Under the pieces are notes generated by a model. The model ran no database searches. It worked only from the letters and a program-made list of their open reading frames with translations, and was not told the origin of the DNA. From Candidatus Brocadia sp. WS118 (GTDB taxonomy: Bacteria; Planctomycetota; Brocadiia; Brocadiales; Brocadiaceae): DNA of 37,611 nt. The stretch covers positions 1-37,611 of the forward strand of contig PHFX01000167.1 of assembly GCA_007618135.1 (NCBI GenBank), in the 5' to 3' direction. Below, piece after piece: positions 17,022-36,124 of this stretch (positions within the stretch are counted from its first letter, which is position 1; every line of letters begins with the position of its first letter). A program made the position numbers and the translations under genes.

Positions 17022-19718
17022 ATGGTAATGATTCCAAAAATCAAATTAAGTATTGACGGCAAGACCGTAGAGGTGAATAAAGGGAAAACCGTCTTGCAGG
17101 CGGCCAACTCTATTGGTATTCAAATTCCAACCCTGTGTCATGACCCGCGCCTTGAACCCTTTTCAGCATGCCGTGTCTGCATGGTAGAGGTTGAGAGGGG
17201 CAAGTCGAGCGCACTCATCACTTCATGCAGCACCGAGGCTGCCGATGGAATGGTGATCCGCACGGACTCAGAGAAGGTGTTGAAGACACGAAAGATGGTT
17301 TTGGAGTTAATCCTTTCCGACCATCCCAAGGATTGCATGACCTGTGATAAATGCGGCGCATGCACCTTGCAGGATCTTGCGTATGAGTACCAGGTAAGAG
17401 ACAGCAGATTCTTTGAAAAACCCGACGGTGGTGTTACCGAAGATGAAAACCCTTCCATTCAACAGGATACCAGCAAGTGCATCCTGTGTGGCCGTTGTGT
17501 CCGTATCTGCGCCGAAGTGCAGCAGGATTATGCGATTGATTTTAAGCATCGCGGATTTACGACGGAAACCGGTTTGCCCCTTGGAAAGGCGCGGCGCGAG
17601 ACGACCTGTGTCCTCTGCGGTCAGTGTGTATCTACCTGTCCCGTGGGCTCGTTGGTGGAAAAACAGGCCGTTGGAAAGGCCAGGGACTGGGAATTAAAGC
17701 AGGTAAAAACCACCTGCGCATATTGCGGGGTAGGTTGTACGATGTATTTAAACGTCAAGGGGAATGAGGTTGTTAAGGTGACCTCAAAGACAGGTTCTGT
17801 GCCGAATGACGGGAATTTGTGCGTGAAAGGCCGGTTTGGTTATGACTTTGTCCATCACCCCGACCGTCTGAAGCAACCGCTCATCAAGAAGAATGGAAGA
17901 TTTGAAGAAGCAACATGGGACGAGGCCCTTGATTTTATTGCCGGTAAACTGAATGACATAAAGGCCAGATACGGACCCGATACGATCGGGGTATTCAGTT
18001 CTTCGCGGTGCACCAATGAAGAAAACTATCTGGCAATGAAATTTGCGCGGGCTGCAATTGGCACCAACAACGTAGACCAGTGTGCCCGGACTTGACACGC
18101 ACCCTCCGTCGCCGGTCTGGCGATGTCATTCGGAAGCGGTTCAATGACCAATTCCATCAGTGAAATCAAGGATTGCAAACTCATCTTCCTCATCGGCGGC
18201 AATCCCACAGAGGCGCACCCGATTGTAGGGTTAGAGATGAAAAAGGCGCTCCGCAGGGGATGCACATTTATTGTTGCAGACCCGCGCCAGATCTGGTTTG
18301 CCCAGCATGCTAAGTTATATCTTCCGTTGAAGCCCGGCACGGACAACTGGCTCTTAAATGCAATGGCGCATGTCATCCTTGCGGAAGGTCTTGAAAACAA
18401 GGAATTCATAAAGACACGAACTGAGGGTTTTGAAGAATTAAAAGCGTTTATTAAGGACATCACACCTGAAAAGGCATCGGAATTTACCGGTGTTCCTGCG
18501 GAAGACATTCGTCAGGCCGCCAGGTTATATGCGAAATCAGAGAAGTCGGCTATATATTACACCTTAGGCATTACCGAGCATACCTGCGGAACGGATAATG
18601 TAAGATGCATTGCAAACCTTGCACTGCTAACCGGACACGTTGGGAAATCCAGCACCGGGGTCAACCCCATCCGAGGGCAGAACAATGTCCAGGGTGCAAC
18701 GGACATGTGCCTCCCGGATAAATTACCCGGATATCAGCTGTTTTCAGATGAGAAGGTGGTAGAAAAGTTTGAAAAGAACTGGGGTGTAACCCTGAACAAA
18801 AAACCGGGCAATACCGCGCCAACCATGTTTGAGCGGATGAGTAAAGGGGAATTCAAGGCGTTGTATGTCATCGGTGAAGACCCGATCATGAGTGAGCCGA
18901 ATCAGGATTATACCATCAAAGGACTGAAAAGTCTGGAGCTGCTGGTCGTACAGGACATCTTTATGTCGGAGACCGCTCAGTATGCACATGTCATCCTGCC
19001 GGCAGCAAGTTTTGTTGAAAAGGACGGTACGTTTACCAACACCGAACGCCGCGTACAGCGTGTGCGCAAAGGGATTAATCCGATTGGAAATGCAAAGCCT
19101 GACTGGCAGATTACCAGTGAGCTGTCCACCCGTATGGGTTATAAAATGGAGTATCCTTCTCCCAAAGAAGTCTGGGACGAGATTGCCAGCCTTGTGCCCA
19201 TGCTTGCAGGTATTAATTACGCGCGAATCGAGCGGAACGGCATTCAATGGCCATGCCCTGATGTAAAACATCCCGGCACGAAATTCATGCATGAGGGCAA
19301 ATTCCCGCGTGGTCTTGGCAAGTTTTTTGTATTGCCTTACCGTGCGCCTGCCGAGAGTCCTGACAAGGATTATCCGTTATTGTTAACAACGGGGCGCACC
19401 CTGTATCATTATGGCGCTGGCACGATGACCCGCCGGTCGGCTGGAATCATTCATAAAACAAACGATTGTTTCGTTGAAGTACATCAGACGGATGCCGGGG
19501 AATTGGGCATCTTTGATGGCGAGATGGTAAAGGTTGTTTCGCGGCGGGGTGAGATAACAGCCCGCGCAGAGGTTTCTGACAAGGTGAAACGGGGTGTCAT
19601 CTGGATACCCATGCATTTTGCGGAGGCGGCCGTGAATAAGCTTACCATGGATGCTTACGATAACATCACCCAGACGGCCGAATACAAGGTCTGCGGGGCA
19701 AAGATCGAAAAACTGTAA
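17022..19718 (+). CDS. fdhA: Selenocysteine-containing formate dehydrogenase, alpha subunit
   Basis: A molybdenum or tungsten bis-MGD enzyme that oxidises formate to CO2 (or runs in reverse). The 898 residues include a Sec encoded by the in-frame TGA at 18093-18095 (U358). The context CART-U-HAPSVAGL matches the Sec/His active-site pair of E. coli FdhF. Before it come a 2Fe-2S domain (C39, C50, C53, C69), a NuoG-type His/Cys cluster (H101, C105, C108, C114), two 4Fe-4S ferredoxin motifs (C153-C163, C196-C206) and the Mo-proximal 4Fe-4S cluster (C232, C235, C239, C267). NPIRGQNNVQGATDM carries the substrate-site arginine region, and a molydopterin dinucleotide-binding domain ends the protein. 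GAGGAG lies 10 nt before the ATG. Read naively it splits into two genes (17022-18095 and 18123-19718). No NADH- or quinone-linked partner subunit is adjacent. Confidence 0.93.
18093..18126 (+). other. Sec codon TGA and bacterial SECIS hairpin
   Basis: The TGA is followed after 11 nt by a 7-bp stem (18107-18113 with 18119-18125, one G-U pair) closed by the 5-nt loop GGTCT at 18114-18118. The distance from TGA to loop, 18 nt, and the GGTCT loop are those of the E. coli fdhF SECIS that SelB binds. The sequence between them keeps the open frame. tRNA-Sec, selA and selB are not in the window. Confidence 0.9.
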
Positions 19719-20282: not shown

Positions 20283-21839
20283 ATGATCGATTGGACTAAA
20301 ATTGTAGAATCACACGTTATCAAGACATTCCGGAAAATAAGTTATAAGTGGTGGGGAATTGACATCCAGTTTTATGATGAATACAGCACGTACAAAAACA
20401 ATGGCGTATGTTTACAAAATCCTCTCTGCAATACAATACGGGTAAAACCAGCAGGGGCGAAGCTTTGCTCTCAAACGTATCGGAAAAAGCTTAAAGAACT
20501 CATCAAAAATCAAAGGTCTTTTTTCTACCAATGTTTTGCTGGTCTCCAGGGATTTGCAGTCCCCATCCTGGTGAAAAAAAAATATGTAGGAGCCATGATC
20601 GGGTCTGGTATCAGGGTATTTGAAAACAACGATCAGATGCAAAAGAGGTATAGAGAAGCGCTCATAGAGCTCGGTTTTAATCGCGAGGAGCTAGACCGGT
20701 GTTATGAGAACCTAAAAACAACAGACCTTCACAAAAAGGAATTTATATCCGATTTCATGAAACATATTGCCGAAGATGCCGTTGCTTTTTATGAACTCTT
20801 ACAGGAAAAGGAGGAGATTGCAAAAAAACAAGCATTTCTCCTGGACAGTATTTATAAAGAAAAGTATAAAGGAATCATCGGAACCAGTCCGGCAATGAAA
20901 AGGGTGTTTGATACCTTAGAACTCATCGAACGGAGTGAAAGCCCCGTCTTAATCGAAGGGGAAAGCGGGACGGGAAAAGAGCTTGTAGCAGCAGCCATAC
21001 ATTATAACAGTCCGCGCAAAGACAAAATATTTGTTATCCAGAATTGTTCTGCCTTTAGTGATACCCTGCTCAATTCTGAATTGTTTGGACACGAAAAAGG
21101 CGCTTTTACCGGCGCCTATGCAGAGAAGAAAGGTTTGTTTGAAGTTGCAGATAAGGGGACATTGTTCCTGGATGAGATTGGAGACATGAATATAGAAATC
21201 CAGGCAAGGCTCTTGCGTGTACTGGAAGATGGGTCATTTTACCGTGTGGGTGGTACAGAGCAAAAAAAGACAAATGTCAGGATTATTGCTGCAACAAATA
21301 AAGAATTAAAAGAAGTAGTTGAACGGCGTCTCTTCAGGAAAGACCTCTTGTACCGGATAAACACGATCCACGTAACACTGCCACCACTCAGAGAGAGAAA
21401 AGAGGATATCTCACTTCTGGTCAATCACTTTCTGGACTATTACGCCATCTCCTGCCATGGAGGCAGGAGGGAGATGGATAAAGAGGTAAGAGAACTTTTG
21501 CTGTCCTATCAATGGCCGGGCAATGTCCGTGAACTGAAAAACCTGATAGAACGTCTAGTCCTTTTGTCCGGTACTGGTAAAACCATTGAAGTCCGTCACA
21601 TCCCCGGTGAAATCCTGGCGGGCATGTATCCTGGACTCCATGCCCATAACCCTACAAAGCCAGTAAAACTTACCTATGCGATCAAGGGGCTTGAGAAAAA
21701 TATGGTCTGTGAGGCCTTAGTGCGAACGAAATGGAACAAGACTGTTGCATCAAAAGAACTTGGCATCAGCCGCGCAAGCCTGAATAACAAAATCGCGGAA
21801 TTCAATATCCAGCCCGACCCACATCTATGGGGGGCGTAA
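20283..21839 (+). CDS. PocR-domain sigma-54-dependent transcriptional activator
   Basis: The 518-residue product is a bacterial enhancer-binding protein. Residues about 5-165 form a PocR-type sensory domain (paired cysteines in CLQNPLCNT and KLCSQTY, then YQCFAGLQGFAVPI), a domain known to bind small hydrocarbon-type ligands in other proteins. The AAA+ domain (about 195-430) has Walker A GESGTGKE, an intact GAFTGA loop that contacts sigma-54, Walker B TLFLDEIGD and the arginine-finger region LLYRIN. A Fis-type helix-turn-helix (KTVASKELGISRASLNNKI) ends it. The target genes are not known; no sigma-54 promoter was recognised in the window. Confidence 0.92.
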   Translation: MIDWTKIVESHVIKTFRKISYKWWGIDIQFYDEYSTYKNNGVCLQNPLCNTIRVKPAGAKLCSQTYRKKLKELIKNQRSFFYQCFAGLQGFAVPILVKKKYVGAMIGSGIRVFENNDQMQKRYREALIELGFNREELDRCYENLKTTDLHKKEFISDFMKHIAEDAVAFYELLQEKEEIAKKQAFLLDSIYKEKYKGIIGTSPAMKRVFDTLELIERSESPVLIEGESGTGKELVAAAIHYNSPRKDKIFVIQNCSAFSDTLLNSELFGHEKGAFTGAYAEKKGLFEVADKGTLFLDEIGDMNIEIQARLLRVLEDGSFYRVGGTEQKKTNVRIIAATNKELKEVVERRLFRKDLLYRINTIHVTLPPLRERKEDISLLVNHFLDYYAISCHGGRREMDKEVRELLLSYQWPGNVRELKNLIERLVLLSGTGKTIEVRHIPGEILAGMYPGLHAHNPTKPVKLTYAIKGLEKNMVCEALVRTKWNKTVASKELGISRASLNNKIAEFNIQPDPHLWGA

Positions 21840-23202: not shown

Positions 23203-23313
23203 GTATCGTGACAAAGGTAAACTACGGGCGACCGTGGGGCGCAAAGTAACAGGGTCTTCAAAACATTTTCCTGCAAAAACAGGAAAAGAGAAAGACAGCC
23301 TTACTGCCGAAGA
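23203..23313 (+). promoter_or_regulatory. GEMM-I (c-di-GMP-I) riboswitch aptamer
   Basis: The string AAAGGTAAAC, a 6-bp stem CTACGG/CCGTGG closed by the GNRA tetraloop GCGA (23222-23237), then GGCGCAAAGTAACAGGGTCT matches the GEMM-I core (consensus GGCAAAC, GNRA hairpin, GGACGCAAAGC, then a second hairpin). The second hairpin is GTCTT ... CCTG-CAAAAA-CAGG ... AAGAC (23254-23295), and the ending ACAGCC-TTACT-GCCGAAG follows the consensus ACAGCCGGGTTGCCGAA. It lies in the leader of the dehydratase-kinase fusion gene. The aptamer is recognised by eye only; ligand preference (c-di-GMP or cGAMP) is undetermined. Confidence 0.85.
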
Positions 23314-23357
23314 TGTTTAGTAGTATAAATATCCTTGCAGTAAGGTTGTTTTATTTT
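23299..23357 (+). terminator. Riboswitch terminator stem (expression platform)
   Basis: CCTTACTGC (23299-23307), part of the aptamer's 3' side, is exactly complementary to GCAGTAAGG (23337-23345), which is followed by a T-rich run TTGTTTTATTTT. Folding of the aptamer and of the terminator therefore compete for the same bases. The simplest reading is an ON switch: ligand keeps CCTTACTGC in the aptamer and lets transcription continue to the gene 33 nt downstream. Confidence 0.8.
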
Positions 23358-23390: not shown

Positions 23391-26300
23391 ATGAAAAGAC
23401 ATGACCACAAAGACATTTCGCGATTTTTTCCTCAGGGTTTTTATCATAACCTGATATATCCTACCCGTTTCAAACGTCTCCTTTTTTTCCTGCTCCTTGA
23501 TTTTGTAATCATTGTGTTTTCGCTCTATCTCTCTTTTTTCATGCGTTTCGAGTTTACCATTCCTTCTGAATATAGAGTGCTCGTATTGGATGTAATCCCA
23601 CTTTTTCTTTTGATAAAGCTAACTTCATTTTATTGCTTCAGGGTCTATAAAATCACCTGGAGATATGTGGGCATCAACGATCTTGTAAATATTGCCGTTG
23701 CACAAACAGCATCAACATCTGTCCTGATGATGCTTATTTTGATTCCCATGCCCTCATGGTTTCATGCTGTTATTCCGGGTTTCTTCTTTTTTGATGTGCA
23801 TATCAAAGGATTCCCAAGAAGCGTCTTTTTCATAGACGGTATGGTTTCCTTTGTTTTATTCTGTGGATCAAGGTTCTCGAAAAGGCTATTTTTGGAAATT
23901 ATCCATAAAGGGGCAACCAATCATGCCGGCAAGAAAACCCTTGTTATCGGAGCGGGGAATACAGGGGAAATGATCATGAGGGATATGAAAAGACAAGGGT
24001 ACGGAGACTATTATCCTGTGGGTTTTCTCGATGATAATGAAAATAAGGTCGGGACAAGGATGCATGGATTGAACGTGTTCGGCACAACGGACAAACTCAG
24101 TGATGTCGTCTTCAAATATGGAATTGAAGCGATCATTATTGCCATTCCGTCCCTCGATTATAAGGTTCTCAGGAGGATGTACACGGCAGCGAAAGGTCTG
24201 AAGATAGACACAATAAAGATTGTTCCACGGATATATGATCTTCGCAACCCCTCGGTAAATATAAAGAATCTTGAAGATATACAGGCAGGAGATCTTCTGG
24301 GAAGGCAGACAGTGGAAATTGATTGTCAGGAAATCGGCACATTTTTGAAACACAAGGTAATCCTCATAACAGGCGCAGGAGGGTCTATCGGGTCAGAATT
24401 AACGATACAAGTGTGTTCTTTTCATCCCGAAAAGATCGTTCTCTTTGATATCGATGAAACTGAACTGCACCAGGTAAAGCACAAATTAGAGAGGTTGTTT
24501 CCCAATTTATTTGACAGGATGTTGATAAATTCGAGGATACAGGAGAAGGTAATTTTAATAACCGGGGATATCAGGGATGTTGACGTAGTGAATGAAGTTT
24601 TTGAAAAATTTAAACCCCAGATTGTATTTCATGCGGCTGCTTATAAACACGTTTCCATCATGGAAATTAATTGTAAAGAGGCTGTAAAGGTGAACATGTT
24701 TGGGACTTATAATCTTGCAAGGGCCTCAGCAAATCATCACGTAGAAAAGTTTATCCTGATTTCTACGGACAAAGCAGTCAAACCTACGAGCATTATGGGC
24801 GCTACAAAAAGAATGGCTGAATATATTTGCACGGCATTTAATGAAAATTCAAAAACAAATTTTCTGGCAGTACGATTTGGGAATGTCCTGGGCAGTCGCG
24901 GAAGTGTTGTGCCCATATTTCTTGAGCAAATGAAACATGGTGGCCCTATTACGATAACCCACAAGGATATTCAAAGGTTTTTTATGACCATCCCGGAGGC
25001 AGTATCCCTGGTGCTACAGGCATCGGTTCTTGGAAAAGGAAGGGATATCCTTGTTCTTGATATGGGGGAGCCGGTCAAGATTTTGAGCCTGGCAGAAGAA
25101 TTGATAAAAATCCATGGGTTACAACCGTATCAGGACATAGATATACAATTTATCGGTTTAAGACCGGGAGAGAAACTCTTTGAAGAGACACTCTCGGCAG
25201 AGGAAGGCACAACTGCAAGCAAACACAAAAAAATATTTATTGCAAAGCAAGGAAAAACATATTCAAAAGATGAAATTGAAATGATCCTAAAGGGGTTTGA
25301 AAAGCTGTTGAAGGTGCTTCCGATAATGGATAATTATGAAATAATCAGGGATGTGTTCAGGAAATACGTAAAAACTTATGAAAGAAGGGGACATAACAGG
25401 CAAAACCAGCAGTTAGTAGGTATAGAGTCAGAATTGCCGCAGAACGACGAGGCTCATTTTCAACACAACAAAATGCAATTTGAGAAGCTTCTGGACGAAT
25501 TGCCGGCAATAGAAGATTATGAAATAATCAGAGATACATTGAGAAATTACATACAAAGTTTGGAGGAGAGGAGGCAGAGTCAAATAAGCCAGACATCAGA
25601 AAAAGCAGCCTCATCGCTTCAAAGAATAGAGCCTTCGCGCAGATACTTACAGTTGGTATTTGGCAAAAACCGATACGCTCTTTCATTCTTAGATAAAACC
25701 ATAGAAGATGAATTTAAGGAACACGTTTTCCTTTCCCATCCTTCGCAAAACCACGATTGTTTATTTACCGTTGGATATCAGGGCAATGAGAATACGAATG
25801 GAAATGGGAAGGCGTTTTATTTTAAAGGAGAGAAATGGCATTACTATGGTAATGGAACTGGGGAGATTAAGGTGTTTTTCCCGAGGAATCTGGCGTTTTC
25901 TAATACCATGCGCATTCTTGCTTTATTGTACAATGAATTTTACCGATGTGAAGATAATAGTTTTATATTGCATGCTGCAGGGTTACGTAAGTATGGAAAA
26001 GGATTTGTCTTTGCCGGTGAATCAGGGGCGGGAAAAACGATCATTTCGAAATTGTCATTGCCAGAGGCAAAGGTGCTTTCGGATGAATCAGTCATCGTAT
26101 CCAAAGATCATGAAGGATATTGGATTTCTCAAGGTCCGATAAAGACAGAGATAACGGAACCGAATGATACAAGAGTCAGTCTCTGCGCAATTTTTTTTCT
26201 GGTGAAGGATCATGTTAACGCGGTAAGGAGGTTACACAGATCAGAGACAGTGCAAAAACTCATGGATAATATATTTTACGTAAATCTTTCGGGAAGGCAG

Positions 26301-26435
26301 ACACTGGTAGATACACTGGAAAAAAGGTTAAAATTTATTCATGACGCTTACAATCATGTGGCGGTTTACGAATTACGATTCAAAAGCGACAATAGTTTTT
26401 GGCAGGAAATTGAACGTGTTATTTTGCACAGTTAA
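23391..26435 (+). CDS. Membrane NDP-sugar 4,6-dehydratase fused to HprK-like kinase domain
   Basis: The 1014-residue product begins with four membrane segments (about 25-175) and a nucleotide-binding region (LVIGAGNTGE, about 185), as in WbpM/PglF-type proteins. A CapD-type dehydratase follows (about 325-610): TGAGGSIGSE, then STDKAVKPTSIMGATKR, where the catalytic Tyr is Met as is normal in this subfamily, then RFGNVLGSRGSV. These make UDP-4-keto-6-deoxy sugars. Two copies of a 38-residue unit follow (about 634 and 694: FEKLL-x-x-LP-x-x-x-(D/N)YEIIRD). The last 270 residues resemble HprK-type kinases: a PEP-carboxykinase-like P-loop FAGESGAGKT near 874, then LSDESVIV. HprK-like domains on sugar dehydratases are not a layout I know. 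The gene is led by a c-di-GMP riboswitch. Confidence 0.88.
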   Translation: MKRHDHKDISRFFPQGFYHNLIYPTRFKRLLFFLLLDFVIIVFSLYLSFFMRFEFTIPSEYRVLVLDVIPLFLLIKLTSFYCFRVYKITWRYVGINDLVNIAVAQTASTSVLMMLILIPMPSWFHAVIPGFFFFDVHIKGFPRSVFFIDGMVSFVLFCGSRFSKRLFLEIIHKGATNHAGKKTLVIGAGNTGEMIMRDMKRQGYGDYYPVGFLDDNENKVGTRMHGLNVFGTTDKLSDVVFKYGIEAIIIAIPSLDYKVLRRMYTAAKGLKIDTIKIVPRIYDLRNPSVNIKNLEDIQAGDLLGRQTVEIDCQEIGTFLKHKVILITGAGGSIGSELTIQVCSFHPEKIVLFDIDETELHQVKHKLERLFPNLFDRMLINSRIQEKVILITGDIRDVDVVNEVFEKFKPQIVFHAAAYKHVSIMEINCKEAVKVNMFGTYNLARASANHHVEKFILISTDKAVKPTSIMGATKRMAEYICTAFNENSKTNFLAVRFGNVLGSRGSVVPIFLEQMKHGGPITITHKDIQRFFMTIPEAVSLVLQASVLGKGRDILVLDMGEPVKILSLAEELIKIHGLQPYQDIDIQFIGLRPGEKLFEETLSAEEGTTASKHKKIFIAKQGKTYSKDEIEMILKGFEKLLKVLPIMDNYEIIRDVFRKYVKTYERRGHNRQNQQLVGIESELPQNDEAHFQHNKMQFEKLLDELPAIEDYEIIRDTLRNYIQSLEERRQSQISQTSEKAASSLQRIEPSRRYLQLVFGKNRYALSFLDKTIEDEFKEHVFLSHPSQNHDCLFTVGYQGNENTNGNGKAFYFKGEKWHYYGNGTGEIKVFFPRNLAFSNTMRILALLYNEFYRCEDNSFILHAAGLRKYGKGFVFAGESGAGKTIISKLSLPEAKVLSDESVIVSKDHEGYWISQGPIKTEITEPNDTRVSLCAIFFLVKDHVNAVRRLHRSETVQKLMDNIFYVNLSGRQTLVDTLEKRLKFIHDAYNHVAVYELRFKSDNSFWQEIERVILHS

Positions 26436-28429: not shown

Positions 28430-28477
28430 GAGATCGGTTTGAAATTCCTGAACATGAACTTAGGGAGGAATGAATTC

Positions 28478-30997
28478 GTGAATCAACACGTGGGAACTGG
28501 ACTTGTGCCTGACCGTACACCATTTTCGCAAGAGGTACATTTAGCCGATTATTTCAATATCGTAAGAAAACGGAAATGGACGGTTATTGCAACCTTTTTT
28601 GCCATAGTATGCATTGTTACCGTTTGGTCGTTTTTTACCATACCGGTCTATAAGGCAACGACAAAAATCATGATTGAAAGTCAGTCATCCTTCATTAATA
28701 AAATAGCGGATGCGACCTATGTGGACCCAAAAGATGAGGCGTATTACCAGACGCAATACCGTTTGTTAATGAGCAGGAGTCTGGCAAAAAAAGTAATTGA
28801 AGACCTGGACCTCTGGAAGAATTTTAGGAGTGATCTTGATAAAAACCCTGACGCTTCCCCGTCTCCGGAAGCGGAGATACACCCTCGTATGGTAAATTGG
28901 TATCTCTCAAATCTACAGATTGCACCCATACGGACAACGAAACTTGTTGATATCAGTTTTTTAAGCCCTTCTCCCGAAATGTCCGCCCGCATGGCCAATG
29001 CACATGCACATGCCTTTATTGCAAGAAGTACAGAACTCCAGCACAAGGTATCAGAGCAGGCGCTGGAGTGGCTAAAGAAACAGGTTCGTGGACAGAAAAC
29101 CATGGTGGGAACATCTCAGCGGTCAGTGTATGAATATAAATTTGAACAATTAGGATCATTTTCTGTTGACGATGAAGGTGTTTTTTCAATACCAGAGATC
29201 AAGGAAAACCCCGTTATCAAAGACCTCCGGGGTAAATTGGCTGAGCTCAAGGCCAGGAAATCTGAGATGGTAACGAAATACGGCCCAAAGCACCCGAAGA
29301 TGATTGAGATTAATTCCAGTATCCAAAAACTGGAACAGGGGATTACTGATGAGGTCCAGGCGATCAGGAAGGTAATTAAGGCTGAATTGGATAAAATCAT
29401 TGCCTTTGAAAAAAGGGTGCGGCAAACCCAGGGGCATCAGACGGAGGATACCGATCCCTCTACGCAAAAGGCTATTACCTATGATATGGTGCGTCTGGAG
29501 GCGGAAAGCGATCAGGAGATTTACGATGTTTTGCTCAAGCATGCGAAAGAGATTGGCCTTACGGGGAGTATGGAGAAAAACAATATCCGTATTGTAGATG
29601 AGGCTGAATTGCCTTTGTTTCCAGTCAAACCCCGGATTTTTATGAACATCCTGTTGTCGGTAATTATTGGCGCCGTATTTGGAACAGGGCTTGCCTTTTT
29701 TCTTGAGTATATGGACAGAAAAATAAGGACGTCAGAGGATGTGCTGCGACGGCTGGGAATGCCGGTGATTGGAGTCATGCCATATGATAAATGCTTAAAA
29801 ACAAACAACATACTTTCTCTCGCACAGGATGACTCTTATCTAAAACAAGGGAGACGCAAGGGCGGGTATGCGCAATATTATGGTTATGATCTTTCGAACA
29901 GCCTGATTGCCAAACTGCCGTTTACACAATCGTCGCTGTCCGGTCAGTCATTTATGGTAGAAAGCGCAATCGCCGGTGAGGGAAAAACTACCGTTCTTGC
30001 GAAAATGGCGCTTAGTCTGTCACAGAGGGGATTCCGGGTAATTATGGTAGATGCGGATCTGCAGCAGCCATCGTTGCATGACATGTTCGGATTCAATAAC
30101 GGGAAAGGGAGCGGTTTGTTAAACGGTATGAATAGCATTCTCTCCCGGGAAATACGGGAAGGTACTTTAGATACCTGGAGCATAGACGATCTCTTCTGCC
30201 TTATTGCCCTGAAGAAACAGAGCGGAAGGCTTGTGGTGCGTTGTGATGATCAGACCATAACTGCCGTCTTTGAACACGGACGCCTCCTTCATTTACAAAA
30301 CAGGGATAATTCCTTTGCCAACCGTTTGGGGACTATGCTTCTCCGGGGAGGTTTTATTACGGAAGATCAATTAAACGATGCCCTGGAGAGAAACCAGCGG
30401 ACAGGACTGCCTCTGGGGTACATTCTTATCAATTCCGGATATATTAACAGGAATCAGTTGCAGGGTCCTTTAAAACTCCAGAAGGAGGAATATCTCCAAA
30501 AATTATTTAGCTGGAAGCATGGTGCCTTTACTTTTGAACCGGGCGGTGTGGAAACCTACGAAGACAAGAGGATCTATTTTGAAGACGACTGCACACCGGT
30601 AATCGACCGGTTGGGGCGAATGTCAGGCAGCCGCTTCATTGAGGGTGAAATGCTTTCTTATGTTAAGCCCGTTAACGGATCAAATTTATCCATCCTGCCG
30701 GCCGGAGAAGGAAAGGGAAACCTTAGTCATCCTGCCTGTTTTGCCCTTATGTCAAAGTTTCTAACCCTGCTGAAACAGCGTTTTGACGTAGTGCTTGTGG
30801 ACGCCCCGCCGGTGCTGGATGGTGGAAACAGCGCGACTCCGCTCCTTTCACTCGTAGATGGCGTAATCTTTGTAATTAAGGCCGGGCAGGTATCTGTTGA
30901 CCTTATCAACAAGACCGTTGAAACCATAAAAGAGTCAAAGGCAAATATTGTTGGCGCAGTGCTTAATCAGGCAAGGATAGAAAAAAGCTATTATTGA
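28478..30997 (+). CDS. Wzz/BY-kinase (Wzc-like) with DUF4388/MshEN-like insertion
   Basis: A polysaccharide co-polymerase and tyrosine autokinase that controls chain length. Two membrane spans bracket a periplasmic coiled-coil Wzz domain (about 35-410). The kinase has Walker A AGEGKTT near 500, Walker A' VIMVDADLQQPS near 521 and Walker B VVLVDAPP near 771. In E. coli Wzc A' and B lie about 80 residues apart; here they are about 250 apart. The extra piece (about 560-730) reads GTLDTWSIDDLFCLIALKKQ (DUF4388/PATAN opening), then tandem RLG-TMLLRGGFI and LGYILINSGYI motifs like the c-di-GMP-binding MshEN domain, then LFSWKHGAFTFEPG. The tyrosine tail is short (KSYY). I start at GTG 28478 because GGGAGG lies 9 nt ahead; the frame is open to 28439. 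Confidence 0.9.
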   Translation: MNQHVGTGLVPDRTPFSQEVHLADYFNIVRKRKWTVIATFFAIVCIVTVWSFFTIPVYKATTKIMIESQSSFINKIADATYVDPKDEAYYQTQYRLLMSRSLAKKVIEDLDLWKNFRSDLDKNPDASPSPEAEIHPRMVNWYLSNLQIAPIRTTKLVDISFLSPSPEMSARMANAHAHAFIARSTELQHKVSEQALEWLKKQVRGQKTMVGTSQRSVYEYKFEQLGSFSVDDEGVFSIPEIKENPVIKDLRGKLAELKARKSEMVTKYGPKHPKMIEINSSIQKLEQGITDEVQAIRKVIKAELDKIIAFEKRVRQTQGHQTEDTDPSTQKAITYDMVRLEAESDQEIYDVLLKHAKEIGLTGSMEKNNIRIVDEAELPLFPVKPRIFMNILLSVIIGAVFGTGLAFFLEYMDRKIRTSEDVLRRLGMPVIGVMPYDKCLKTNNILSLAQDDSYLKQGRRKGGYAQYYGYDLSNSLIAKLPFTQSSLSGQSFMVESAIAGEGKTTVLAKMALSLSQRGFRVIMVDADLQQPSLHDMFGFNNGKGSGLLNGMNSILSREIREGTLDTWSIDDLFCLIALKKQSGRLVVRCDDQTITAVFEHGRLLHLQNRDNSFANRLGTMLLRGGFITEDQLNDALERNQRTGLPLGYILINSGYINRNQLQGPLKLQKEEYLQKLFSWKHGAFTFEPGGVETYEDKRIYFEDDCTPVIDRLGRMSGSRFIEGEMLSYVKPVNGSNLSILPAGEGKGNLSHPACFALMSKFLTLLKQRFDVVLVDAPPVLDGGNSATPLLSLVDGVIFVIKAGQVSVDLINKTVETIKESKANIVGAVLNQARIEKSYY

Positions 30998-33175: not shown

Positions 33176-34181
33176 ATGAATAAAGTCTTAGTTACCGGCG
33201 CTGCAGGTTTCATTGGTTTTCACTTATCTAAAAGATTGATTGCACTTGGAAAGGATGTTATTGGATTAGACAACCTCAATGATTACTACGATGTTAACCT
33301 TAAACTTGCCAGACTAAAACAGATCGAAGGTTACAAAATTCAGTTTATAAAACTCGACATTGCAAATCGGGAGGAAATCGTGAGGCTATTTCACGACAAT
33401 AAATTTGATATTGTGGTGAACCTTGCAGCCCAGGCAGGGGTAAGGTATTCTTTGAAAAATCCGCATGTTTATATAGAAAGCAACATTAATGGATTTGTGA
33501 ACGTTCTCGAAGGATGCGCAGCATGCCGTGAAACATCTTGTCTATGCCTCCTCAAGCTCTGTGTATGGGGCAAATACCAGGATGCCCTTTTCTGTCCATC
33601 ATAATGTTGATCATCCGGTATCTCTTTATGCTGCTACCAAGAAGGCGAATGAGCTTATGGCTCATACCTATTCGAGTTTGTATAAAATTCCCTGCACAGG
33701 GCTCAGATTTTTTACCGTTTACGGTCCGTGGGGTCGTCCGGATATGGCGTTATTCATTTTTACAAAGGCCATATGGGAAGGTAAACCCATTGATGTATTT
33801 AATTATGGCAAGATGCAAAGGGATTTTACCTATATTGATGATATTATCGAAGGCATGGTCAGGGTAATGGATAAAATTCCAGAACCAAATCCAAAATGGA
33901 GTGGTGATAATCCAGATACTGCGACGAGCTATGCGCCATATAAGCTGTATAATATAGGGAATAACAACCCGGTTGAGCTTATGCATTTTATTGAAGTACT
34001 GGAATCTTGTCTTGGTAAAAAGTCAAAGAAAAATCTCTTGCCGATTCAAGAGGGCGATGTACCTGCGACCTATGCAGATGTTGAAGATTTGACAAGAGAT
34101 GTGGGTTTTAAACCGTCAACTCCAATTGAAGAAGGCATTAAGAAGTTTGTGGGATGGTACAGGGAATATCACAAAGTGTAA
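33176..34181 (+). pseudogene. UDP-glucuronate 4-epimerase-like gene, frameshifted
   Basis: A short-chain dehydrogenase-type NAD-dependent epimerase of about 335 residues in two frames. The first frame has GAAGFIGFHLSKRL (NAD site) and NDYYDVNLKLARL, typical of UDP-glucuronate epimerases (CapI-like). The second has [18 protein letters not shown] (catalytic Y-x3-K), [17 protein letters not shown] and a normal C-terminus. The frames join near 33515-33530 (EGCA|HAVKH), where one extra base or a two-base loss breaks the gene. Apart from that it is complete. The enzyme would make UDP-galacturonate for the exopolysaccharide. A sequencing error is possible. Confidence 0.85.
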
Positions 34182-34246: not shown

Positions 34247-36124
34247 GTGCCGTGAAGTTAAGGAATACCGAAGTTCTTTAACATGCTGCAATAAAGATGA
34301 CAGACCAATGGGGGTGCTACCCATTGCGAAGTATCGGCAACGCCGTACAGGCGGGGTTGTCAAACCGCTCTACGCTGCAAAAGCTGTAAAGCCGATGTAG
34401 TGAACGGATAGAGAAAAGGTGGGGATAACTCATCAGGTGTGACTTTAAGAGATGAATGCAAATGAATCGCTGAAGAAGTAACGAAAACGCAGAAGTTGTC
34501 GGGCAAAATCGCATTGTGCTAAGGATGCAGAAACAAGCATAGCGGAGACCTGTTAACTGGCTATGTGCCCACCGTTATACAGGCGACATGACTTAAAGTT
34601 TGGCTTTAGTGCGGAACACGGGATATCCGTTTCAGGGTAACGGCTGCAAAAGGCGTGAAACGGAAGTCGGACTAAGCCGTAAGAGTGAAGATATTCCGCG
34701 AAAGCGGAAAGGAGCGAAGGGCTTAGGTTATTCAGTGCAATGTTCACTACAACAACCTTGCAAAAAAAAAGCGGGGGAAGATTAACAAATGAATATCCAC
34801 GTATGCAAAACAGTACCAATTGAGTACAGCCAGGTGGTAAACGCATACCGCAAGGTAAAGAAAGGCGGAAAGGCAGCAGGGATAGACAACGAAAGCTGGG
34901 AGAAGTTTGACCAGAATGTCGAGGGCAATCTCTATGTAATTTGGAATCGGATGTCCTCAGGAAGCTACCATCCCCAAGCTGTACGAGAGGTAGAAATACC
35001 GAAGAGGGACGGCAAAATGCGTAAATTAGGCATTCCAACACTACGCGACAGGATAGCACAGCAAGTAGTGAAGGACTACATGGAAAAGAGAATAGATAGA
35101 CTTTTCCACGAGAACTCCTATGGGTACAGACCATTGAAGAACGCACACCAAGCCATAGAACAAGTCAGACAGAACTGCTACAAGCAGGACTGGGTGATAG
35201 ATATGGACATAAGCAAGTTCTTTGATGAAATAGACCATGAGCTGATGATAAAAGCGGTAGAGCATGTCAGAGAGGAGAAATGGGTGAAGATGTACGTGGA
35301 GAGATGGTTAGGGATGGCGGTGCAAAAGCAAGACGGTACATTGCAACCACGAGCAGGAAAAGGGACGCGTGCCAGGGCGGCGTAATAAGCCCTTTACTTG
35401 CAAACCTCTATCTGCATTTCACGCTTGATGTGTGGCTATCCAAGCACTACCCGCAGGTGAACTTTGTAAGATACGCAGATGACGTCGTGGTACACTGTAC
35501 AAGCAAAGCAGAGGCGGAGAAAGTGCTGGAAGCGATAAGGCAGAGACTGGCAGAAGTAAAGCTGCAAATCAAAGAGGAAAAGACACGCATAGCGTATTGC
35601 AAGGATTACCGACGTAAAGCAAGGCATGAAGTGGTCAAATTTGAATTTCTGGGATTCAGCTATCAGCCGAGAGCAAGAAAGAGTAACAGAGACGGTAAGA
35701 GTTTTACAGCATTTGCAGCCGAGATAAGCCAGTCCAACCAGAAGCGAATACGGAAAGTAATCAGAGAAGTAAAACTCTGGGGTAACACGCAGGTGGAAAT
35801 CCAGGAAATTGCAAAACTCCTCAACGCCAAACTTCGAGGATGGATAGCGTATTATGGTAAGTACAGCATAAGAAGCCTAAGAAACACCTTGATGATGATA
35901 GACGGGAGACTCATCAAGTGGCTCAGGAAAAAGCACAAGAGTGGCTATAGAAAATCAGTGGAAAAACTCAATTCGATAAAACAAGCCTTCCCGGCGTTGT
36001 TTTATCACTGGAAAATGGGATACTGTTGAAGCGTATCAAGAATAACACGAGCCGTATGACGGGAGACTGTCACGTACGGTTCTGTGAGAGGCTTGGGGGT
36101 GAAACTCCCCCTTGCCTACTCGGC
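34247..36124 (+). mobile_element. Group II intron
   Basis: The 5' end begins GTGCCGTGAAG (GUGYG-like). A reverse transcriptase-maturase lies in domain IV. Domain V is a textbook 34-nt hairpin at 36049-36082 (GAGCCGTATGAC..., AGC triad, GAGA tetraloop). Domain VI (36087-36121) pairs GAGAGGC with GCCT-A-CTC, leaving a bulged A at 36118 as branch point. The exact 3' end is unsure: it lies a few bases after domain VI, where the usual terminal AY is not seen. The intron sits between the broken epimerase and wecB and abuts a type C repeat that lacks its left arm. Confidence 0.85.
34789..36029 (+). pseudogene. ltrA: Group II intron reverse transcriptase/maturase, frameshifted
   Basis: Together the two frames give a protein of about 413 residues. 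The first frame carries the RT fingers (KKGGKAAGIDNESW, REVEIPKRDGKMRKLGIPTLRDRIAQ, ENSYGYRP, WVIDMDISKFFDEIDH). The second has QGGVISPLLANLYLH, the catalytic VRYADD and a maturase domain ending FPALFYHW. They join near 35373, where one base is missing inside the expected GTPxQGG motif (ACG CG- TGC CAG). There is no HNH endonuclease domain. As written, the product would lack YADD and the intron could not move by itself. A sequencing error is possible; an AAAAGGG just upstream is a poor slippery site. Confidence 0.85.

Follow-up and report, generated by a model that had tools for sequence, protein, structure and literature searches.

A predicted UDP-GlcNAc 4,6-dehydratase fused to an HprK-like kinase whose relatives lie in RiPP cassettes, in an exopolysaccharide locus of Candidatus Brocadia

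The stretch of DNA analysed here (the window; 37,611 nt from Candidatus Brocadia sp. WS118) contains a gene in which a predicted membrane-bound sugar 4,6-dehydratase is joined, in one open frame, to a kinase domain of the HprK/phosphoenolpyruvate carboxykinase (PEPCK) fold. The observations comprise the fusion and its recurrence in other genomes, the fold and intact active-site signature of the kinase, the selection acting on it, the cassette for a ribosomally synthesized and post-translationally modified peptide (RiPP) in which its relatives are found, and a cyclic di-GMP (c-di-GMP) riboswitch in the leader. They modestly favor the reading that the product is a membrane dehydratase of an exopolysaccharide locus to which a RiPP-cassette kinase, acting on Ser/Thr of a peptide or protein, has been joined. 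A search of the open-access literature found no report of a dehydratase-kinase fusion; a sugar enzyme and a type of peptide kinase, each already known, appear to be combined here in a way not previously reported. The fused gene and its parts are as follows (G numbers denote genomes and L numbers loci of the comparison set).

23391..26435, + strand: fused dehydratase-kinase gene, a single 1014-aa frame with the same domain order in other genomes
23391..25310, + strand: predicted dehydratase part (residues 1-640), with membrane N-terminus, CoA_binding_3 domain and PglF/WbpM-type UDP-GlcNAc 4,6-dehydratase domain
25296..25640, + strand: linker (residues 636-750) of two similar helical segments
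25641..26432, + strand: HprK/PEPCK-fold kinase domain (residues 751-1014), from motifs, profile and predicted structure
25971..25982, + strand: kinase motif HAAG (residues 861-864)
26016..26039, + strand: P-loop GESGAGKT (residues 876-883)
26076..26090, + strand: kinase motif LSDES (residues 896-900)

The initial annotation described one open frame encoding a sugar 4,6-dehydratase followed by an HprK-like kinase; the frame indeed runs without a stop from an ATG through 1014 codons on the + strand, and both the domain order and the HprK/PEPCK-type fold are supported. Residues 1-640 are, by their motifs and profile matches, a long-form PglF/WbpM-type UDP-GlcNAc 4,6-dehydratase. Polysacc_synt_2 matches residues 324-619 (E 1.6e-111), PglF/WlaL of known structure (5bju) aligns with residues 295-623 (E 5.2e-72), and the short-chain dehydrogenase/reductase domain contains both the NAD(P) motif (GAGGSIG, residues 328-334) and the PglF active-site stretch (STDKAVKPTSIMGATK, residues 458-473), motifs that are retained in 5/5 fused proteins. 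A simple hydropathy scan places three hydrophobic stretches inside residues 25-120. This hydrophobic N-terminus and the motif STDKAVxPT(S/N)IMGxTKR are common to PglF and the window dehydratase, which differs in its additional C-terminal helical tail and whole kinase domain. The linker is shared with unfused orthologues, six of eight of which stop just past the same double linker and two of which have a single one. Beyond it, the kinase domain begins near residue 751 and equals almost the entire 270-aa stand-alone protein of related genomes; the C-terminal location given earlier for the kinase (730-1014) is thus confirmed, with a start that was placed slightly early.

Residues 751-1014 have the P-loop, the upstream His and the downstream acidic pair that define the HprK/PEPCK fold, and are predicted from sequence and model to form a complete kinase that retains its catalytic signature. 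The window protein has DE as its acidic pair, HprK has DD. A profile built from the kinase relatives finds PEPCK (E 8.3e-6), and an AlphaFold model of the 264-aa domain, made from a 7-sequence alignment (mean pLDDT 66.9, with residues 1-87 below 50 and the P-loop core mostly above 70), matches PEPCK with Z up to 12.6 over 165 aligned residues and HPr kinase/phosphorylase (HprK/P) with a Foldseek E of 4e-4, so that the structural comparison with HprK proposed in the initial annotation comes out in its favor. A model from the single sequence (mean pLDDT 32) was discarded for the 7-sequence version. The window kinase shares fold and P-loop/His/acid arrangement with HprK/P and PEPCK, but differs from HprK/P in partners and context and in that no Pfam kinase or HPr-kinase model matches the whole fused protein up to E 0.1; by the Pfam models it would not be a true HPr kinase/phosphorylase. 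Its best NCBIfam match, and nearest HprK-related RiPP family by sequence, is ScmC of the SynChlorMet cassette (TIGR04249; E 3.4e-9), at 36.5 bits against a cut-off of 125, far below equivalog membership; HprK_rel_A also matches below its cut-off (E 2.4e-4). Models of further SynChlorMet proteins, ScmD (PqqD) and ScmE/F (radical S-adenosylmethionine [SAM] enzymes), match the partners of the kinase in sister loci.

In 33 genomes of the same bacterial family, the kinase profile finds nine close copies in eight genomes (E 4e-79 or better), and four further genomes have weak, distant matches only. Five of the nine end a dehydratase (the window, G010, G025, G020, and G018); the other four are separate 270-aa proteins (G026, G022, G015, and G025), 47-56% identical to the window kinase. 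A search for the dehydratase in 22 of the 33 genomes, with one split hit counted once, yields 13 genes in 12 genomes, 5/13 fused to the kinase and 8/13 without it. No other kinase match in 392 genomes of the phylum lies within a dehydratase-sized frame; two frames of 682-685 aa in the family join a radical SAM protein to a kinase. The same domain order, for which the initial annotation proposed a search, is present in four other genomes, and the arrangement named there as refuting, in which homologues are always two genes, does not hold, even though eight dehydratases lack the kinase and four kinase relatives stand alone. The window genome is split among 299 contigs and has broken open reading frames (ORFs) elsewhere in the window (33176-34181 and 34789-36029), as might be expected if two genes had been joined by assembly or sequencing error; that explanation, or a chance join, is rejected as having next to no probability, since the same fusion occurs in G010 (71% identity) and in three more genomes, one of them (G020) a single contig.

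The fused proteins probably arose in two separate events. They form two groups in both the kinase and the dehydratase trees; in the kinase tree the window and G010 proteins cluster with stand-alone kinases, apart from the other fused ones. The joints also differ, with a double linker in the window and G010 and a single one in the other three. Approximately unbiased (AU) tests reject a single fused clade, though marginally (AU p 0.031 for the kinase and 0.042 for the dehydratase). Two fusions require the simpler count of events; one ancestral fusion followed by fissions and losses may also account for the distribution.

The relatives of the kinase are found in a RiPP-type cassette consisting of the HprK-like kinase, a PqqD-type RiPP recognition element (RRE), a radical SAM/SPASM protein, a YxxPxI precursor and an archaeal-type signal peptidase (both proteins scanned exceed the TIGR02228 cut-off). 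The order in G015 and G022 is stand-alone kinase, PqqD, radical SAM/SPASM, a 54-aa YxxPxI peptide, signal peptidase, and export and Wzz genes, the last two of which also lie downstream of the fused gene in the window. YxxPxI precursors are present at all four stand-alone kinase loci (G026, in which the radical SAM frame is interrupted, G022, G015, and G025). G025 has two modules in the same locus: the first runs from a fused dehydratase-kinase through PqqD, radical SAM and peptide to an ATP-binding cassette (ABC) permease and GlmS; the second contains a stand-alone kinase, radical SAM, peptide, signal peptidase, export protein and Wzz. The fused genes of G025, G020, and G018 have PqqD and a YxxP precursor downstream, and the cassettes of G020 and G018 have no cassette-type radical SAM gene. 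More distantly, at least six relatives are among the 593 pattern matches listed in one search (query A3), and an earlier contig scan (query A2) gave 583 pattern matches and no kinase relative. The six listed belong to metagenome-assembled genomes of Chloroflexi, Acidobacteria-type and Kiritimatiellia bacteria and have radical SAM genes nearby in 5/6, PqqD in 4/6, signal peptidase in 3/6 and YxxP peptides in 5/6 cases. Searches of a plasmid collection returned nothing except two weak Streptomyces matches, and no LppK or lasso-kinase sequence.

These cassettes resemble those of the linear polyphosphorylated peptides (LPP) published in 2026, which combine an HprK-like kinase, a discrete RRE, an archaeal-type signal peptidase, a nucleoside triphosphate (NTP) transferase, a transporter and a YxxPx leader, and were first noticed within capsular-polysaccharide loci (PMC13381572). 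The kinase of that system, LppK, is described as phosphorylating a core Ser (PMC13381572); likewise, the Ser at the C-terminus is the target of lasso-peptide kinases (PMC8498205), and a ring Ser is phosphorylated in a peptide with a YxxPxL leader (PMC10368454). With LPP cassettes, the sister loci share the HprK-like kinase, discrete RRE, archaeal-type signal peptidase, YxxPx[I/V] precursor and polysaccharide locus; the stand-alone loci L027-L030 have the RRE, signal peptidase, YxxP precursor and kinase together. They differ in the radical SAM/SPASM protein and in that no NTP transferase is among the neighbours scanned at L027-L030 (part of the ORFs). The window itself differs in having the kinase fused to a sugar enzyme, with no adjacent RRE, precursor or signal peptidase. 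An HprK-type kinase in a RiPP cluster is also a feature of paeninodin-type lasso-peptide systems, whose kinases are HPr kinase homologues; no lasso cyclase was identified in the cassettes studied here. For both LppK and the lasso kinases, the comparison with the window kinase is one of gene content and published description rather than of sequences directly. The statement in the initial annotation that the substrate of HprK-related kinases is unknown has been overtaken for the wider group by peptide Ser, as these reports describe it (PMC13381572, PMC8498205, PMC10368454), and still applies to the window protein. Because the relatives of the window kinase lie in RiPP cassettes resembling those of LPP, whose kinase phosphorylates Ser, the window kinase is likely a peptide- or protein-Ser kinase that came from such a cassette.

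A C-terminal Ser, as in paeninodin-type systems, is found in 10/13 hand-picked precursors whose neighboring kinase, of the main group, stands alone and has an intact P-loop, compared with 8/207 background ORFs. The 13 were taken from small motif-bearing ORFs, with the identical L027, L028, and L029 peptides counted once; candidates at L019, L077, L078, and L134, beside kinases of another group, were left out (they end in P, P, E, and D; with them the count is 10/17). Seven of the ten Ser-ending precursors are one sequence family and not independent, so that a binomial value overstates the enrichment.

Other arrangements of such kinases were seen in the same searches. The frames L112:164-1972 and L113:1447-3255 (G023 and G024) have the same kind of kinase (profile E <1e-17) fused to a radical SAM protein (Pfam Radical_SAM E 2.8e-7 in L112), with atypical P-loops (GHSDAGKS in L112, GHSEAGKS in L113). 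Widespread cassettes, at L010, L011, L117, L119, L152, L153, and L154, place a YxxP precursor that has a Cys pair and ends in TS or NS beside an HprK-like kinase, and most precursor cassettes of L152-L154 are surrounded by signal peptidase, PqqD and radical SAM genes. A second HprK-like kinase group, distinct from the fused type and from the same bacterial family, lies beside radical SAM genes at L077:8036-12912, L078:8366-10999, L114, and L115, with PqqD in L077 and L078.

In the window's lineage, the kinase domain is under purifying selection. Between the window and G010 proteins (73% identity in this comparison), the ratio of nonsynonymous to synonymous substitution (dN/dS) is 0.168 in the dehydratase, 0.161 in the kinase and 0.099 in the P-loop region, values that are rough at a synonymous change of ~1 per site. 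Both proteins keep every kinase signature residue, few parts are as constrained as the P-loop region, and the fused copy of G025 also retains the signature.

The leader of the fused gene contains a c-di-GMP-I aptamer that ends 79 nt ahead of the start codon.

23206..23311, + strand: c-di-GMP-I riboswitch aptamer (RF01051), 48.8 bits against a gathering threshold of 35
23294..23350, + strand: terminator hairpin that uses the aptamer 3' strand, followed by UUAUUUU (-28.2 kcal/mol, z -8.2)

Aptamers of this clan lie upstream of 7/13 dehydratase genes (the window, L032, L069, L070, L071, L073, and L074); none was found at L026, L030, or L031, even with relaxed thresholds, or at L072, L075, or L076. 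A competing hairpin accompanies six of the seven, that of G018 being part of a composite fold. Because the 3' strand of the aptamer alternatively forms the terminator, ligand binding should favor read-through, and the two mutually exclusive structures are predicted to be an ON switch in which c-di-GMP would turn on expression by blocking termination.

A mechanism consistent with these data can be proposed. The dehydratase would produce a 4-keto-6-deoxy UDP-HexNAc intermediate; a whole kinase gene from a RiPP cassette, which persists in sister genera at loci of the same kind, may have been joined to its C-terminus. The kinase would use ATP to phosphorylate a Ser/Thr residue, probably close to the C-terminus, in a peptide or protein rather than a sugar, and the fusion would tether it so that phosphorylation takes place at the membrane site of sugar synthesis. 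In the window's lineage, because the remaining cassette genes are not beside the kinase, it was probably retained for a different protein target within the polysaccharide machinery, or for a peptide whose gene lies elsewhere. The idea that the kinase phosphorylates its own C-terminal Ser was dropped: it rested on two related fused cases, the window and G010 proteins, whose last residues are HS and NS, and NS is also the ending of the unfused dehydratases of G003, G009, and G002, genomes that lack a close kinase.

Several observations weigh against a peptide kinase of cassette origin at work in the fused protein. The NCBIfam matches are far under their cut-offs, and no remnant of PqqD, radical SAM, signal peptidase or precursor genes was found by tblastn in the window or L026 (best E 0.064), nor a strict-form precursor motif in either. 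No PqqD was found in the G010 genome, the sole PqqD match of the window genome is on an unrelated short contig, and cassette-type radical SAM proteins were not found in G000 or G010 (only matches of ~30% identity). A genome-wide precursor pattern match in G000 (C47) was taken as chance, there being no small ORF with a leader-like motif there. The precursors beside the three cassette-linked fusions end in G, L, and Q (Ser 0/3). The kinase also appears dispensable, because five unfused congeners retain the dehydratase without any close kinase, and catalysis is not required in every fused protein, because two of the five (G020 and G018) have lost the His (to Pro or Arg) and the P-loop (EKSGDNKT or GIPGDVKN). 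In these two, where the kinase has a much higher rate of evolution than the dehydratase, it is catalytically dead judging by its motifs.

The same two copies are the basis for regarding the C-terminal domain as a sensor of ATP/ADP or a scaffold (in some lineages a pseudokinase) whose role is to regulate the dehydratase or bind partners and not to transfer phosphate: they keep the domain despite the loss of the His and P-loop glycines, at a dN/dS of 0.13-0.25 in their clade. This explanation is unlikely for the window and G010 proteins, which keep all signature residues and a highly constrained P-loop region. A kinase whose substrate is a pathway sugar, nucleotide sugar, glycolipid or polyprenyl phosphate would suit the covalent join to a nucleotide-sugar enzyme within an exopolysaccharide locus, as well as the best structural match, PEPCK, the substrate of which is a small molecule; it is rendered distinctly improbable by the RRE, precursor peptide and signal peptidase genes that adjoin close and distant relatives, and by the published HprK-like kinases of such sets, which act on peptide Ser (PMC13381572, PMC8498205, PMC10368454). 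The suggestion in the initial annotation that the fusion links the kinase to a sugar, a glycolipid or the polysaccharide machinery therefore survives for the machinery (5/13 fused, probably in two events) and is not supported for sugar and glycolipid. That the kinase is a functionless relic, left behind by the fusion of neighboring genes and the deletion of the other cassette genes, would accord with the missing partners around the window and the decay in G018 and G020, but a dN/dS equal to that of the dehydratase at 73% identity makes it very doubtful here. As an extension of the peptide-kinase reading, the exopolysaccharide and a phosphorylated RiPP-like peptide might form one system, in which the fused enzyme makes a rare UDP-sugar and phosphorylates a peptide acceptor at the same membrane site, sugar or polysaccharide being joined via phosphoserine so that, controlled by c-di-GMP, the peptide would anchor or prime the matrix. 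Phosphoglycosylated lasso peptides provide a model for such a join; the proposal is speculative and has little probability.

Other genes of the locus belong to polysaccharide export and regulation.

20283..21839, + strand: sigma-54 activator with PocR sensor domain, also in L030, L070, and L073
22344..23117, + strand: STAS-PilZ protein upstream of the fused gene, with orthologues next to the dehydratase in L030, L070, and L073
27165..28184, + strand: EpsE-type polysaccharide export protein, from profile matches
28439..30997, + strand: Wzz/bacterial tyrosine kinase (BY-kinase) with DUF4388 and a c-di-GMP-binding (MshEN-like) motif within the kinase domain, from profile matches

PilZ and MshEN-like c-di-GMP domains thus flank the fused gene on either side. 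In the Wzz/BY-kinase, the ATPase domain is split by the inserted DUF4388, and the MshEN-related motif of the window protein scores above the NCBIfam cut-off; the same kind of protein is encoded at L026:1500-4034, L029:17236-19812, and L069:1922-4447. A Wzc-type kinase directly controlled by c-di-GMP is possible. Elsewhere in the window, the gene for the formate dehydrogenase alpha subunit (17022-19718), split by the ORF caller, has an in-frame TGA at 18093 (CART-TGA-HAPSVAGL), which is presumably the selenocysteine position of FdhF-type enzymes. A group II intron (34328-36124, two Rfam matches) has a broken reverse transcriptase frame (34789-35385 and 35280-36029), and a nucleotide-sugar epimerase gene (33176-34181) is in two overlapping frames owing to a frameshift, being intact (336 aa) at L032:8150-9160.

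The gene for hydrazine synthase alpha, found in 19/33 family genomes and 0/14 controls, points to anammox bacteria as the host family; no match was found in the window's own assembly, for which the assignment rests on kinship. HprK-like RiPP kinases have been noticed in capsular-polysaccharide loci, and the fusion bears on their presence there: having occurred probably twice, it hints that peptide phosphorylation and the production of slime polysaccharide are linked, and, with one lineage under full purifying selection, it provides evidence at the genome level for cooperation between the two pathways. The system offers testable material in a single soluble domain, the cassette precursor peptides, the catalytic Lys (K882) and the ON logic of the riboswitch, in bacteria whose matrix formation matters for the granules of anammox wastewater treatment.

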